A stretch of DNA of 5,483 nt from positions 1 to 5,483 of the forward strand of contig JAITCS010000033.1 of assembly GCA_031282935.1 (NCBI GenBank), read 5' to 3'. This document shows positions 1-5,483 of this stretch, piece after piece. Position numbers and translations under genes: made by a program. Origin of the DNA: Cellulomonadaceae bacterium. GTDB lineage: Bacteria; Actinomycetota; Actinomycetes; Actinomycetales; Cellulomonadaceae. How positions within the stretch are numbered: the stretch's first letter is position 1; the number at the start of each line of letters is the position of its first letter. Below the pieces are notes generated by a model that saw only the letters and a program-made list of their open reading frames with translations, was not told where the DNA came from and ran no database searches.

Positions 1-584
1 GGCTGCCCGTGCTCCCAAGCGGCGCCCGGGTTGCCACCGAATGGCCCGCGCAAGAACTCCCTGGCAGCCTCAAACTCGGTTTCGGGGTTTTCCACCTGAA
101 TCCCAGGGAACCCGAAATCGCCAAAGCCGCCAAAGCCACCGCCAAAAGCTTCACCAGGGCCGTGATGCGTATGGCCCCCGTGGCCGTGACCACCATGCCC
201 ATGACCGTGCCCGTGGCCGCCGTGGCCATGACTGTCGTGGCCACCGCACATGCCGCCGGGGTTACGGCCACAGGTGCAAACATGAGGCCCCTCGCCCGGG
301 TGCTGGCATTGACCCGCAGGCTTTTCGGCGGCAGGTTCCTTGCGATCCTTGCAGCACCCGCCTTGGCCATGAGCGCCACCGCCCCCGCAACCGCCTTCGG
401 TGGCCGCGCTGGGAGCCGGGTACGGGTCACCCTCTTCAACATCCTCAAAAGCGACTATGACGTAAGCGGGTTTGCCATCTTTCAGCATTAGCACTGCGCC
501 ATCGGAATCAACCATGTCCGCGATGCGACCTAAATCCTCTGCAGCGTCCTCAAAAAGTACAATGTGCCTGGTATTTACTAGCAT
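1..584 (-). CDS. Phd/YefM-like domain fused to Cys- and His-rich putative metal-binding protein (partial, 3' end off window)
   Basis: Reading the minus strand from the ATG at 584 gives 194 residues with no stop before the left edge, so the gene is C-terminally incomplete. Residues 1-51 look like a Phd/YefM antitoxin fold: a short strand, a helix (FEDAAEDLGRIADMV), then the hairpin GAVLMLKDGKPAYVIVAFED, matching the family pattern in which GKP precedes a hydrophobic strand. Residues 66-113 carry seven Cys (66, 77, 78, 93, 103, 105, 113), including CC and CTC. Residues 116-141 hold 12 His in 26 residues as HG/GHG repeats. A Gly/Phe-rich stretch (146-160) follows, then a charged helical piece (NPETEFEAAREFLRG). 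An in-frame TAG (596-594) just upstream leaves ATG 584 as the only plausible start. The CAC/CAT plus GGN codons explain the short DNA repeats here. Binding of Zn, Ni or Cu is inferred from composition. The N-terminal domain could bind DNA or a toxin partner, but no toxin is visible. I do not recognise the full architecture. Confidence 0.8.
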   Translation of the reverse strand, partial: MLVNTRHIVLFEDAAEDLGRIADMVDSDGAVLMLKDGKPAYVIVAFEDVEEGDPYPAPSAATEGGCGGGGAHGQGGCCKDRKEPAAEKPAGQCQHPGEGPHVCTCGRNPGGMCGGHDSHGHGGHGHGHGHGGHGHGGHTHHGPGEAFGGGFGGFGDFGFPGIQVENPETEFEAAREFLRGPFGGNPGAAWEHGQ

Positions 585-586
585 GT

Positions 587-596
587 GCCTAGCCTA
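587..596 (-). promoter_or_regulatory. Putative -10 / leaderless start region of the His-rich gene
   Basis: TAGGCT (596-591, minus strand) fits the actinobacterial TANNNT -10 and ends 6 bases before the ATG at 584, which would place the transcript start at or next to the start codon. No good Shine-Dalgarno sequence precedes the ATG, which agrees with leaderless translation. No convincing -35 is seen; GTGCAC lies about 17 bases upstream. The ten bases TAGGCTAGGC also resemble one half of the DtxR/IdeR box (TAGGTTAGGC), but the other half is missing. This is tentative. Confidence 0.3.
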
Positions 597-639
597 GTTG
601 GTGCTGGCGCTTTGTGCACTAGGTTTCGCCCAAAGCGGA

Positions 640-653
640 TACCAAATTTGGTA
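640..653. promoter_or_regulatory. Perfect 14-bp palindrome, candidate operator
   Basis: TACCAAATTTGGTA is a gapless, perfect inverted repeat in the divergent region between the His-rich gene (minus, start 584) and the TM2 gene (plus, start 793). It lies 56 bases upstream of the His-rich ATG and about 86 bases upstream of the TM2 -10, so it is better placed to act on the His-rich gene. It does not match the Zur, DtxR, LexA or LacI-type consensus sequences I know. A dimeric regulator site is inferred. Confidence 0.4.
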
Positions 654-735
654 CTCGGGCATTTGGCGCGATTTGCGCTAAGGCGCCATCATTTCTGCGC
701 CCTGGCGCCAGATGCTTTTCGGCGCAACGCACCAC

Positions 736-744
736 TGGTATAGT
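736..744 (+). promoter_or_regulatory. Extended -10 promoter for the TM2 gene
   Basis: TGGTATAGT contains an extended -10 (TG, one base, TATAGT at 739-744). The -35 is weak; TTTTCG at 716-721 would give a 17-base spacer, which is tolerable with an extended -10. Transcription would start near 751, leaving a leader of about 40 AT-rich bases before the ATG at 793. This placement argues against the upstream in-frame ATGs at 712 and 748 as starts. Confidence 0.45.
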
Positions 745-792
745 TCAATGAATAAACTAATTTGTAACGAAAATAAAATTTGTGGGGTTAAA

Positions 793-1122
793 ATGGATGA
801 CGGCCGGATCAGTTATTTCGAGCAAGAACAAACTTCTCGGATGCCAAATCCGCGCTCAAAGTATTTGGCAGGAATACTAGGAATTACTCTGGGCGGATTT
901 GGGGCCCACAACTGGTATCTCAAAAAAGAGGGTCGCGCCCTAGTTCAGGTTGTGGCGCTTTTTGGCGCGATTATCTTTTTAGGCGGCGGATTCCCGCTGC
1001 CTACTTCGGTCGCTTTCTTAATTGGGTCGCTCTGGGGGATTATCGAGGGCCTGCTGATAGTCACCTCTAAAGCGGGCACCCGTTGGAATCGTGACCAGTG
1101 GGGCCGCGCGCTAGTAGGCTAG
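793..1122 (+). CDS. TM2 domain-containing small membrane protein
   Basis: This encodes a 109-residue membrane protein from ATG 793. That start is preferred because a GTGGGG ribosome-binding-like run ends 5 bases upstream and the likely promoter (736-744) lies downstream of the alternative start at 712. An internal ATG at 841 is also possible. After a polar N-terminus (1-23), hydrophobic segments lie at about 24-43, 49-66 and 70-91. The motif GFGAHNWYL (35-43) matches the TM2 signature, normally written GxxGAHxFYLG, and SLWGIIEGLLIV (79-90) matches the second helix with its acidic residue. The C-terminus (TRWNRDQWGR) is charged and probably cytoplasmic. TM2 proteins have no single established bacterial function, and nothing here assigns one. 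The gene is convergent with araA, with only 3 bases between stop codons, and is divergent from the His-rich gene. Confidence 0.8.
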   Translation: MDDGRISYFEQEQTSRMPNPRSKYLAGILGITLGGFGAHNWYLKKEGRALVQVVALFGAIIFLGGGFPLPTSVAFLIGSLWGIIEGLLIVTSKAGTRWNRDQWGRALVG

Positions 1123-1128: not shown

Positions 1129-2643
1129 CAAGCCGCGCGCCAACCGATAATAGGCTTGATTCCATTTGCACTGGTTAGCGAAATCTTGCTGCCTAGTGTC
1201 CTCATCAATCACCAATAACTCCATCTGTGCCATGTTGGCAAAGGCCGCGAAAGCCTCAATCCCGGCCGCTGTGGAGAGCGCAGTATGGTGCGCGCCCCCG
1301 GCGGTGAGCCAACACTCAGCCGAGGTGGTGAAATCCGGGCGCGGCTGCCAAATGGCCCGCGCCACGGGCAGGTGCGGCAGGTCGGCGGGCGGATTAACCA
1401 GATCCACCACATTGGCCGTGAGCCGGAAACGGTCGCGCATATCGGTCAATGAAACAACCACGCCCGGCACCGCGTCGGCGGTAAATACCAGCCGCACAGG
1501 ATCGTCTTTCCCGCCTATTCCAAGTGGATGAATTTCCACGCGCGGCTTTCCGGCAGTGAGCGTGGGGCAGATTTCCAGCATATGCGCCCCGAGAATCAGC
1601 TCATGGCCGGGGGTCAAATCGTAAGTGTAATCCTCCATCAAAGAAGCGCCGCCTTTTAAGCCAGCGCCCATAACCTTGGCGGCTCTCACCAAAATGGCGG
1701 TTTTCCAATCACCTTCAGCCCCAAAACCGTACCCCTTTGCCATTAGTCTTTGCACCGCCAAGCCGGGCAACTGCTTCAGGGCACCTAAATCCTCGAAATT
1801 GGTGGTGAAAGCTTTCGCGCCGTGGGCAGTCAAAAAGTTTTCTAGGGCGATTTCCTGCTGCGCCGCATATCGTAAAGAATCGTGGCGCGCCCCACCGGGC
1901 AACAATTCTGGAGCGACGTCATACAGTAACTCGTATTCGGCAACTAATTCGTCAATCTGGGCGGTTGGCACGGCGGCCATAGCGGCCACCAAATCATTTA
2001 CCGCCCAAGTGTTCACGGAAACGCCTAACTGTAATTCCGCTTCCGTTTTGTCGCCCTCGGTTACCGCGACGTTGCGCATGTTGTCCCCAAAGCGCACCAC
2101 TTTCAGGTCGCGCACGGCGTCGAAACCGGCAGCACCCCTAACCCACTGCCCGATTCTGCGCGTGACCTCGGGGTTTGTCGCATGGCCTGCGACCGTGGTG
2201 CGGGGGAGATTGAGCCGAGTGGCAAGATAGGCGTACTCGCGATCACCGTGCGCCGCCTGGTTGAGGTTCATAAAGTCGAAATCAATGGTGTCCCAAGGCA
2301 GGGCCACGTTTGCTTGCGTGTGGAAATGCAGTAAAGGCTTGCGCAGGCTGTCCAGTCCGGTGATCCACATTTTAGCGGGGCTGAATGTGTGCATCCAGGT
2401 GATAACCCCGATAACTTTGTCGTCGCTATTGGCCGCAAGCATGGTGCGCCTAATGCTGTCCGCGTCCTTTAGGACGGGCCGAAAAACGATGGGCGCTGGA
2501 ATGTCACCGGATATGTTTAGGGTCTCCGCTATTTGGCGAGCTTGAGCTTCGACTTGGGCTAAAGTTTCTGGGCCATACAAATCTTGGGAGCCGGTGAGGA
2601 ACCAGATTTCGCGGTCACTGTACGGTTTTGGGGTGGCAGACAT
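1126..2643 (-). CDS. araA: L-arabinose isomerase
   Basis: AraA is the cytoplasmic enzyme that interconverts L-arabinose and L-ribulose, the first step of arabinose catabolism. It is normally Mn2+-dependent and oligomeric. At 505 residues it has the full family length (E. coli about 500). Visible signatures are [11 protein letters not shown] near the N-terminus, [14 protein letters not shown] (81-94), LLHFHTQ (104-110) and [14 protein letters not shown] (123-136). The metal ligands correspond to E310 in [14 protein letters not shown]337 in MEDYTYDL, H354 in GAHMLEICP and one of H452/H453 in [10 protein letters not shown], so the active site looks intact. The ATG at 2643 follows a strong AGGAGGG (2657-2651) with 7-base spacing. 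The gene starts 17 bases after araD and is last in the araB-araD-araA run. Some homologues also isomerise D-galactose to D-tagatose, which the sequence does not resolve. Confidence 0.97.
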
Positions 2644-3370: not shown

Positions 3371-4939
3371 CTATTCCAACGCCAAAATGGCTGCGCGTTC
3401 AATATCCAACCCCGCCAGATATTTACCCAAGTATGCCTCAATACCGCGCAAATCGGCCGGATTCGGATCATATACGTCAAAGGTGGTGTTAGCGAACACC
3501 ACCTCATCAAGCCACGCAGCCAAAGTGCGACCGTCCCCACTGGCAACGGCAGCGGCGTAAGCGGCCAAAACCGCAATGCCCCAAGCGCCGCCCTCGACCG
3601 CGCTCTGGGCAACGGCTATCGGGGATTCGACAAAGCCAGCCAGGAAATGCCCCGCCGCCTCAGGCGTGCGAAACAGCCCGCCGTGGGCGAAAAGCGTGTC
3701 TATCGAAACCTCTTCAGCACGCAAAGTCCGAAACCCTAAAGCCAAAGTCGCAAACACGCTGTAAAGCAAAGCTCGCCCAAAGTTCGGTAAGCTCAAAGTC
3801 GAATCGGGGGAGCGAACCACCGCCGGGCGCCCAGCCTCCAAGCCAACAATCGGTTCACCCGCCAAGAAGTTGTAGGCCAGCAGCCCGCCGCCGTCCGCAG
3901 CGCCATCCAACGCGGCCCCAAAAACAGCTGCGTAAATCTCGTCCGTGGTCACAGAAATGCCCAATGCCGCTGTGAATTGACGAAAAACCTCCATCCAAGC
4001 GGCAAGCTCGGATGACCCGTTATTGCAATGCACCATCGCCACCAAATCACCGGCCGGGGTGGTGACAATGTCCAGCTCGGGGTGGCTACTTTGCAGGGCG
4101 TGTTCCAGCACTATCATGGCGAATATAGAAGTACCGACGGAGATGTTGCCGGTGCGCGGCGAAACAGAATTCGTGGCCACCATGCCGGTTCCGGCGTCAC
4201 CCTCCGGCGGGCATACGAGCGCGCCCGGCTGCAAAGTGCCGGTGGGGTCAAGCCACTGCGCCCCGGCTTCCGCGAGGCGCCCACCGCGTGCGCCCGCCGG
4301 TAAAACCTGGGGCAAGAGGGTGTGCAGCGGCTGGCTAAACCCATGTTGGTGGGCTAGGGCGTCGAATTTTGCCAGGAGATTTTTATCGTAACTGCCCGTG
4401 GCAACGTTTATCGGGAACACCCCCGATGCGTCCCCCACCCCCAACACGGAATTGCCGGTCAAACACCAATGCACATAACCGGCCAGGGTGGTCAGGTGCG
4501 CAATTTCATTTGTGTGCGGTTCCTTATCCAAAATGGCCTGATAAAGGTGAGCGACCGACCAGCGCAAGGGGATATTAGTATCGAAGGTTTTGGATAGGGC
4601 AGCGGCAGCGGCAGCGGTGTTCGTATTTCGCCAGGTCCGAAAAGGGGTGAGGAGATGGCCCGATTTGTCAAAGGCAAGATATCCGTGCATCATCGCGGAA
4701 ATTCCGATGGCGGTGATATTCGTTAATTGGTGGCTTGGAACTTTCTTGGCTAGCGCCGCAAAAGCCTGCCGCACCCCGTTTTGGACAGCGGGCAAGGAAT
4801 ACGTCCACAAGCCGTTTTGCAGCTCGTTTTCCCAGGTGTGCGTGCCAGTGGCTACGGTTTCGAGATTTGCATCGAGCAATACGGCTTTTATGTTTGTGGA
4901 GCCGAGTTCGATGCCTAGCGTCAGGTGGTCAGTTTTCAT
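3371..4939 (-). CDS. araB: Ribulokinase, FGGY carbohydrate kinase family
   Basis: This kinase phosphorylates L-ribulose to L-ribulose-5-phosphate with ATP in the cytoplasm. It shows the FGGY/ASKHA two-domain plan. The N-terminal phosphate-binding loop is GIELGSTNIK (9-18). Substrate-side motifs are ISAMMHGYLAFDK (80-92) and FRTWRN (100-105). The catalytic Asp is most likely D248 in EGDAGTG. The C-terminal nucleotide-binding segment is GNISVGTSIF (264-273), followed by AHGGLFRTPEAAGHFLAGF (418-436) and EGGAWGIAVLAAY. At 522 residues it is shorter than E. coli AraB (566) and reads more like the xylulokinase-like ribulokinases found next to araD/araA in Bacteroides and some Gram-positives; that comparison is from memory. 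L-ribulose specificity is inferred from the araD and araA neighbours. ATG 4939 overlaps the upstream permease stop as ATGA, with GAGG 7 bases before it. A GGCAGC x3 tract (4598-4615) encodes Ala109-114. Confidence 0.92.
   Translation of the reverse strand: MKTDHLTLGIELGSTNIKAVLLDANLETVATGTHTWENELQNGLWTYSLPAVQNGVRQAFAALAKKVPSHQLTNITAIGISAMMHGYLAFDKSGHLLTPFRTWRNTNTAAAAAALSKTFDTNIPLRWSVAHLYQAILDKEPHTNEIAHLTTLAGYVHWCLTGNSVLGVGDASGVFPINVATGSYDKNLLAKFDALAHQHGFSQPLHTLLPQVLPAGARGGRLAEAGAQWLDPTGTLQPGALVCPPEGDAGTGMVATNSVSPRTGNISVGTSIFAMIVLEHALQSSHPELDIVTTPAGDLVAMVHCNNGSSELAAWMEVFRQFTAALGISVTTDEIYAAVFGAALDGAADGGGLLAYNFLAGEPIVGLEAGRPAVVRSPDSTLSLPNFGRALLYSVFATLALGFRTLRAEEVSIDTLFAHGGLFRTPEAAGHFLAGFVESPIAVAQSAVEGGAWGIAVLAAYAAAVASGDGRTLAAWLDEVVFANTTFDVYDPNPADLRGIEAYLGKYLAGLDIERAAILALE
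3481..3504. repeat. Perfect 10-bp inverted repeat within 3' end of araB
   Basis: AGGTGGTGTT (3481-3490) and AACACCACCT (3495-3504) are exact inverted copies separated by 4 bases, inside the araB codons for about residues 479-486 and roughly 110 bases before its stop. In the mRNA this would be a stable tetraloop hairpin. No U-tract follows, so it is not a standard terminator. Confidence 0.6.
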
Positions 4940-4950
4940 GGAGTTACCTC
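4936..4950 (-). promoter_or_regulatory. ATGA stop/start overlap with internal ribosome site for araB
   Basis: The araB ATG (4939-4937) shares bases with the permease TGA (4938-4936). GAGG (4950-4947) lies inside the permease codons, 7 bases before the araB ATG. This arrangement is typical of translational coupling by terminating ribosomes, and it implies a shared transcript. Confidence 0.7.
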
Positions 4951-5483
4951 GTCGGGTAAATCCAAATCGTCATCGCTAATTGCGTCGTGGTGCTTCGGCT
5001 TTTTCCCGCCCCGATCTCGGTGGAACAAGAGGGGATGGATCAGAGCGGAAAGTAAATAAGCTAAAATGGCGATAACGACAATAGTTGCCCCGGGAGAAAC
5101 GTTATGCCAATAGGTTATGGATAACCCAATCAGGCACACTATCACCCCGATAAGTGAGGCCAACGCCATTGTGTGCCCAAAGGAGTGCGTCAGTTGTTGC
5201 GAAATTGCCACCGGCACAATCATTAGGGCCGAAACGAGTAATAACCCAACCACCCGCATAGCAACGGTAACGGTTAAGGCCGCGACCACAGCCACAAGGA
5301 TATTCAACAACCACACCCGCATCCCAGAGGCGATAGCGAAATCCTCATCGTTGGATACCGCAAACAAAGCGTGCCGCAAACCGATGCCCACCGCCAAAAT
5401 AAGCAGGCATAAAGCGGCCGTAGTCCAAACGTCGGCCCAAGTTACCGCCGATATTGAACCGAAAAGGTAAGCCATCAAGTTCC
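4936..5483 (-). CDS. Metal-ion ABC transporter permease, ABC-3 family (partial, 5' end off window)
   Basis: Only the C-terminal 181 residues are visible. The open frame continues through the right edge as ...NLMAYLFGSI, the conserved mid-protein motif of ABC-3 permeases, so a TTG at 5478 is an internal Leu codon and not a start. Counting from that Asn, hydrophobic segments lie at about 17-40, 56-75, 78-96, 104-124 and 130-153. RVVGLLLVSALMIVPVAIS (76-94) and the later NVSPGATIVVIAI match the family's conserved core. ABC-3 permeases (ZnuB, MntB/MtsC/PsaC type) form the membrane channel for importing Zn2+, Mn2+ or Fe2+ with an ATPase and a lipoprotein, whose genes probably lie beyond the window. 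Which metal is moved cannot be read here. The cytoplasmic tail is long and charged, with HH and DDD clusters. The stop TGA overlaps araB's ATG (ATGA), so the two genes are probably co-transcribed. Confidence 0.9.
   Translation of the reverse strand, partial: NLMAYLFGSISAVTWADVWTTAALCLLILAVGIGLRHALFAVSNDEDFAIASGMRVWLLNILVAVVAALTVTVAMRVVGLLLVSALMIVPVAISQQLTHSFGHTMALASLIGVIVCLIGLSITYWHNVSPGATIVVIAILAYLLSALIHPLLFHRDRGGKKPKHHDAISDDDLDLPDEVTP

Follow-up and report, generated by a model that had tools for sequence, protein, structure and literature searches.

What might a protein do that begins like an antitoxin of the Phd/YefM type and continues as a long chain rich in cysteine, histidine and glycine? 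This question is raised by a gene at the left end of a 5,483-nucleotide stretch of DNA from a Cellulomonadaceae bacterium (the window, analysed here at its full length), which is the whole of contig C193 of the genome G000 (1.5 Mb in 228 contigs, with a completeness of 65.5%). The reading that we favour, tentatively and at somewhat less than even chances, is that the product of this Phd-like gene would be a cytosolic metal buffer, in which an antitoxin core has been turned into the carrier of a metal-ligand tail.

The 5' part of the gene occupies positions 1..584 on the minus strand and runs off the contig end. From position 584 to position 3 there are 194 open codons without a stop, and bases 1-2 still fix residue 195 of the encoded protein, P0001; this is the sole stop-free frame among the six across 1..584, and, the window being the entire contig, the frame reaches the contig end before any stop. 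P0001 begins with MLVNTRHIVLFEDAAEDLGRIADMVDSDGAVLMLKDGKPAYVIVAFEDVEE, and a Phd/YefM-like domain (residues 1-51; 432..584, minus strand, as are the following parts) is followed by a Cys-rich stretch of 7 Cys in 48 residues (residues 66-113; 246..389), with Cys at positions 66, 77, 78, 93, 103, 105 and 113 and none in residues 1-65. This stretch ends in the motif HVCTCGRNPGGMC (residues 101-113; 246..284), recognised from its CxC positions and from alignments with relatives. Next come His/Gly repeats with 12 His in 26 residues (residues 116-141; 162..239), a Gly/Phe-rich stretch (residues 142-165; 90..161) and residues 166-195 (1..89), which lead towards a conserved C-terminal segment, most likely located on another contig, C163, according to the alignment with the relative P0004 and a match on that contig. 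When the residues of P0001 were shuffled, 7 Cys in 50 residues recurred in 3 of 5000 shuffles and 12 His in 26 residues in none of 5000; in total, His accounts for 17 of the 195 residues. The frame, the counts and the shuffles thus bear out the initial annotation, which had described an open frame with these three compositional parts. The frame is a real gene and not an artefact of composition, since 14 database relatives, one of them only in part, have the same architecture.

With regard to residues 1-51, a profile of the family (A2, 13 sequences) was compared by hhalign with one built from six Phd-type antitoxins, four of which lie beside a Doc-type gene. The match covered residues 1-51 with Prob 98.3 and P 1.1e-14, a result that we regard as decisive, at the level of sequence profiles, for a relationship to Phd. 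Three further observations point in the same direction: with the Phd of locus L006 as a query, the Phd-like gene was the only match in the genome (E 7.4e-7); the model phrog_2194 matched all five family members tested (E 4.7e-4 to 8.1e-7) and also the L006 Phd over its full length; and in the AlphaFold model of the relative P0002 the first 50 residues have a predicted local distance difference test score (pLDDT) of 78-91 and the order beta-alpha-alpha-beta-beta-alpha, with antitoxins, mostly of the Phd/YefM type, as the top Protein Data Bank (PDB) matches, albeit with weak Foldseek E-values. A Phd fold is therefore predicted for the N-terminal domain by that model. The Pfam family PF02604, which had been proposed as a check, gave a divided answer, as the Phd match emerged from the profile-profile comparison, whereas in the plain scan P0001 reached 11 bits against a curated cut-off of 29.8, and of nine relatives six scored 12.1-14.6 bits and three had no match at E <= 1. 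Searches of PDB sequences were less informative: with the profile A4 the best matches were designed helical proteins, on the tail, followed by YefM (E 0.42) and PfiA (E 0.57), while the L006 Phd alone had no PDB match by sequence. The single PDB sequence match obtained with A2, 9evs (E 7.5e-4, profile positions 74-197), was rejected as compositional, because it lies within the low-complexity middle. The L006 Phd matched 31 phage records, all below 60% identity (29 Streptococcus, 1 Bacteriophage and 1 Monoglobales by the first word of the record), and 15 of the 20 phage records listed were annotated as prevent-host-death / death-on-curing; no match to it was found among plasmids.

The relatives were collected in three protein searches with overlapping results (4, 13 and 6 matches, the first two counts each including P0001), and complete-looking ones have 202-255 residues. 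The initial annotation had made its proposal depend on the existence of homologues with the same two-part plan, and the 14 sequences found share it. The N-terminal domain is common to all 15 sequences, including P0001, with a start nine residues further on in P0004 and P0011, and the C-terminal segment P(P/E/D)(D/E)xxxAGxx(F/L)(V/L)xxL occurs in all 13 relatives whose sequence reaches that place, P0013 being partial and P0001 cut by the contig end. Between the two lies a Cys/His/Gly-rich middle of 117-177 residues in the 13 sequences where the start of the tail was found. The order of its parts varies and it aligns poorly, yet its composition is kept, with Cys, His and Gly together making up 31-47%, and 14 of the 15 sequences hold 4-9 Cys and 7-21 His there, the exception being P0013, a partial sequence with 2 Cys and 7 His. 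The ligand pattern HKCTCGxNPGGYC is present in P0002-P0005, with HVCTCGRNPGGMC as its equivalent in the window, and paired CxC motifs are found in eight of the ten remaining relatives; P0012 has no CxC motif. The claim that the Cys/His stretch is real is in this way upheld by the relatives as well as by the shuffles. In the P0002 model the pLDDT of the middle is mostly below 60, which suggests that this region is disordered.

The initial annotation knew of no named family with this plan, and a search of four libraries (Pfam, NCBIfam, PADLOC and PHROGs) likewise gave no model that covers the whole of it. Of the relatives, three bear a name, in each case as a hypothetical protein, and the one with an organism name is 'hypothetical protein FWG25_07485, Promicromonosporaceae bacterium'. 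Metagenome-assembled genomes with FW numbers include sets from termite guts. A paper on termite-gut genomes of this kind (PMC7024585) lists three Promicromonosporaceae genomes, to which this protein may be linked. Among overlapping whole-genome sets of relatives (99 genomes), genus (11), family (221), order (396) and class (394), the last two drawn from larger groups, the full plan was present only in G000. The other matching rows in the first four sets were read as short Phds, as a 608-residue frame matched in a His-rich piece (L008) and as a frame at locus L018. No relative was detected in the genome-contig collection, by single-protein or alignment scan, or in viral contigs, by alignment scan. 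The L018 frame, in genome G296 (1453-1812, plus strand), has 119 residues with CGCGG and HGHG repeats and no Phd domain recognised by eye, and is possibly a separate Cys/His/Gly-rich metal-ligand protein.

The gene most likely continues beyond the window for about 45 more codons, as judged from a search of G000 with a family-alignment profile, in which positions 194-223 matched contig C163 at 14723-14812 on the minus strand. The piece concerned (14696-14812, minus strand) lies at the extreme end of that contig, its frame is open to the end and it reaches a stop after 38 codons. Whereas the window ends with WEHGQP and the C163 piece starts with NDLIPDDVMQAGQNLVNRLAGLFG, P0004 reads FSHGQPGFLPPELNNLIPEDVMQAGQNLVNRLVGLFG at the matching place. 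On the simplest reading of these sequences, the assembly has split one gene for a protein of some 240 residues, and about seven codons, or 20-25 bases by comparison with P0004, are missing between its two pieces; alternatively, the C163 piece could be a second copy of the gene, and the pieces on C193 and C163 were kept unjoined in the analysis. The question posed earlier, of whether the reading frame breaks just past the window, thus probably has a negative answer, given an in-frame piece with its own stop. The statement that the domain is not followed by a toxin-binding tail fared less well, as it cannot be judged from the window, the conserved C-terminal segment lying beyond it.

How a metal buffer could have arisen from such parts may be pictured as follows. 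A Phd-Doc module would have lost its toxin, and the disordered linker that follows its DNA-binding core would have lengthened to the 117-177 ligand-rich residues seen in the family. The presumed former antitoxin domain would now serve only to pair two subunits and to carry the metal-binding tail, so that a Phd-type core dimer would hold two long, disordered, ligand-rich arms. The protein would take up excess zinc, nickel or copper and release the metal under scarcity. In this scheme dimerisation would follow by analogy with the Phd family, whose core is described as a dimerisation domain in the part of PMC4803016 that deals with it, and the binding of metal by Cys and His is suggested by the ligand content; we also infer that the toxin partner has been lost and that the protein would act as a buffer. 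In favour of this reading stand the relationship of the domain to Phd, the Cys and His kept in the middle of the relatives and the antitoxin features that are missing, namely an adjoining toxin gene, a Doc-sized Fic frame among those found in G000 and the near-neutral charge of Phds, all detailed below.

The strongest rival to the buffer, itself rather unlikely, is a metal-responsive repressor, whose Phd-like domain would bind the GGCGC-rich DNA lying ahead of its own gene with an affinity altered by the metal loading of the disordered tail, as it is by the toxin in Phd-Doc. Its N-terminal domain is related to DNA-binding antitoxins; in Phd itself, according to PMC10135005, the disordered tail sets the operator cooperativity and is ordered by toxin binding. 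A candidate operator region also exists, the divergent intergenic region at 585..792 (208 bp, if the neighbouring gene starts at 793), with eight GGCGC/GCGCC half-sites at 606-725, as many as in no dinucleotide shuffle out of 2000. It also contains the palindrome TACCAAATTTGGTA, of 14 bp, at 640-653 (48 of 2000 shuffles reach a palindrome of this length). All three GGCGCCA of the window fall within this region, but over the whole window the word is not enriched (3 vs 2.7 expected). As a regulon motif the palindrome was rejected, for no second perfect copy was found in G000 and none of its five near copies, with 1-2 mismatches, stands by eye before an obvious metal gene. Between 500 and 1200 no sigma-70-type promoter was found, and terminator-like sites numbered one vs 0.9 expected. 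The domain itself speaks against the repressor, being acidic where Phds are near neutral: over residues 1-51 (42 residues in P0004 and P0011) the net charge is -5 to -9 in all 15 family sequences vs -2 to +3 in 14 Phds (three identical viral ones, L026-L028, being kept and L032, which is not a Phd, dropped), and over residues 10-19 it is -3 or -4 vs 0 or -1. Furthermore, the motif ANQNFS, which every one of the 14 Phds has, is absent from all 15 family members, where the first helix starts with (F/Y)(D/E)DAxxD(F/L) and A(A/V)xD(F/L)x replaces it. For YefM, the section of PMC3920265 on this contact assigns a role in recognising the operator to two conserved arginines in the N-terminal segment. 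Because of the acidic first helix and the missing ANQNFS, classical operator binding is doubtful in this family and would be lost or altered, and the conserved acids D13, D17, D26 and D28 may form a new binding surface. The idea of a metal-sensing DNA-binding protein, already put forward in the initial annotation, is accordingly weakened by the domain and kept alive by a promoter region that looks operator-rich. It has a bold variant, improbable but attractive in view of what the Phd tail does, in which an antitoxin repressor that has lost its toxin would switch operator cooperativity at its own GGCGC-rich promoter by the folding, on metal instead of toxin, of the long disordered Cys/His stretch that separates its DNA-binding core from its tail helix; if true, this would be an entropic, metal-driven gene switch made from a toxin-antitoxin module.

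Two other explanations were weighed. One, unlikely and ranked after the repressor, is a low-complexity protein with no role for metal, whose Gly/His/Cys-rich stretch would be disordered and would act as a spacer or a self-associating scaffold, with a protein-binding N-terminal domain before it and a C-terminal helix after it. The low-complexity composition, the low confidence of the model in the middle and the Gly/Phe-rich part agree with it, as do P0012, without CxC, and P0013, with only two Cys in its partial middle; against it, at least 4 Cys and 7 His are kept in the middle of 14 of the 15 sequences despite the poor alignment, and HKCTCGxNPGGYC or paired CxC motifs recur. The other, improbable, is a metal-gated antitoxin, whose C-terminal helix would still be a toxin-binding tail, with the ligand stretch between this helix and the DNA-binding core governing stability and the toxin gene elsewhere. 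The C-terminal segment is predicted to be a helix from the model of a relative, and the disordered C-terminus of Phd folds into a helix on Doc, as reported in the structural part of PMC4803016. Tail against tail, hhalign matched the family segment over 13 columns with the first half of its Phd counterparts (score 14.8, P 0.0012), a score reached by none of 300 column permutations (best 12.65), and MAFFT placed the first parts of both tails together without a gap; the tails, though, were chosen for this test after the likeness had been noticed. Moreover, in a position matrix of all 28 Phd tail columns 14 family tails scored from -0.3 to 8.0, values that 1-35% of 1954 background windows reach, whereas left-out Phd tails scored 18-43, and the tail of the joint profile also matched designed helices (E 0.03-0.2). 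After these two results the C-terminal helix could no longer be taken with certainty for a Phd toxin-binding tail, and it is treated here as a possible one. In the three tail comparisons L032, of the nine viral loci, and L027 and L028, identical to L026, were omitted, as were P0001 and P0013, whose tail is missing; P0014 and P0015 were absent from the hhalign test. Provided that its 3' end lies on C163, the Phd-like gene also has no toxin gene next to it, and a Fic model found three frames in G000, of 411, 396 and 266 residues, none of them Doc-sized, in a genome of which about a third is missing. An antitoxin whose stability depends on metal, the second model of the initial annotation, has lost ground on these counts.

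Compared with known systems, the family resembles Phd of Phd-Doc (phrog_2194 type, PF02604) in the profile and predicted fold of its N-terminal 51 residues, in the start MLVN/MLIN of most members and in a disordered region followed by a helix. It differs in the long Cys/His/Gly-rich middle, the lack of an adjoining toxin gene, the acidic first helix without ANQNFS, scores far under the Pfam cut-off and its length, complete-looking relatives being more than twice as long as the compared Phds (79-93 residues). Unlike YefM of YefM-YoeB, whose 86-residue chain has no ligand-rich region, the Phd-like gene has no RelE-type toxin gene seen beside it. MqsA, the antitoxin of MqsR, offers a parallel for a candidate metal site made of Cys in an antitoxin-related protein; in the part of PMC2791442 on its structure, zinc has a structural role in a folded Cys4 domain at the N-terminus and DNA is bound by a C-terminal helix-turn-helix (HTH) domain, in contrast to ligands in a predicted-disordered region behind a Phd-type domain, and no HTH family of Pfam or NCBIfam matched P0001, the last part of which is missing from the window. 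The proposed nickel stores Hpn and Hpn-2 of Helicobacter pylori are likewise His-rich and lineage-restricted, but, as characterised in a section of PMC3856676, they are proteins of 7-8 kDa with 47% and 25% His, while P0001 has a lower share of His and adds Cys and an antitoxin-type domain. Among the matches listed in searches of the literature (open-licence full texts of PubMed Central) there was no antitoxin with such a tail. The fold is one already known, and the whole plan is unmatched in the libraries searched.

Toxin-less antitoxins are often regarded as orphans or decay products. Here, an antitoxin-type domain appears to have been retained, with an altered first helix, as part of a longer protein with a composition suggestive of metal. 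Should the protein bind metal, an antitoxin would have been redirected to the handling of metal; should its DNA binding be under the control of metal as well, the family would illustrate how the switch of Phd-Doc, which is based on disorder, can come to respond to another input. The family also marks a blind spot, as the proteins tested fall under the Pfam cut-off and match no NCBIfam model, and the three named relatives are called hypothetical.

Upstream, and divergent from the Phd-like gene, a family scan identified a gene for a small TM2-domain membrane protein (793-1122, plus strand), for which an earlier ATG at 712 is possible. If C163 holds the 3' end, the genes downstream on the same strand encode a Cof-type HAD hydrolase and then a Nudix-type hydrolase (best NCBIfam rows, those for Nudix being under the cut-offs), followed by frames read by eye as housekeeping genes. 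A search for the HAD neighbour in the genus returned only distant HAD proteins (best identity 40% over a part), and the gene order there is not comparable. The genome G000 contains four more Phd/YefM matches, one of which scores below the cut-off.

Elsewhere on C163 (L033 7278-8056, plus strand) there are, by eye, two adjacent CrcB-like membrane proteins, possibly a fluoride channel pair. At the other end of the window, positions 4936-5481 (minus strand) encode the C-terminal part of an ABC-3 metal permease of the ZnuB type. This permease was considered as a partner and set aside, for no match to it lies beside araB in nine loci of other genomes (L054-L062, where the flanks covered were no longer than 1500 bases and in some cases shortened by a contig end). 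Its stop overlaps the start, at 4939, of an araB-like kinase gene (3371-4939, minus strand), so that co-translation is possible. The kinase stands in an arabinose row with AraA and AraD; it scored 27.8 of 428 bits as a ribulokinase in NCBIfam, its best row being xylulokinase (97.1 of 380 bits, also under the cut-off), and copies 60-64% identical to it lie beside araD in nine genus relatives.
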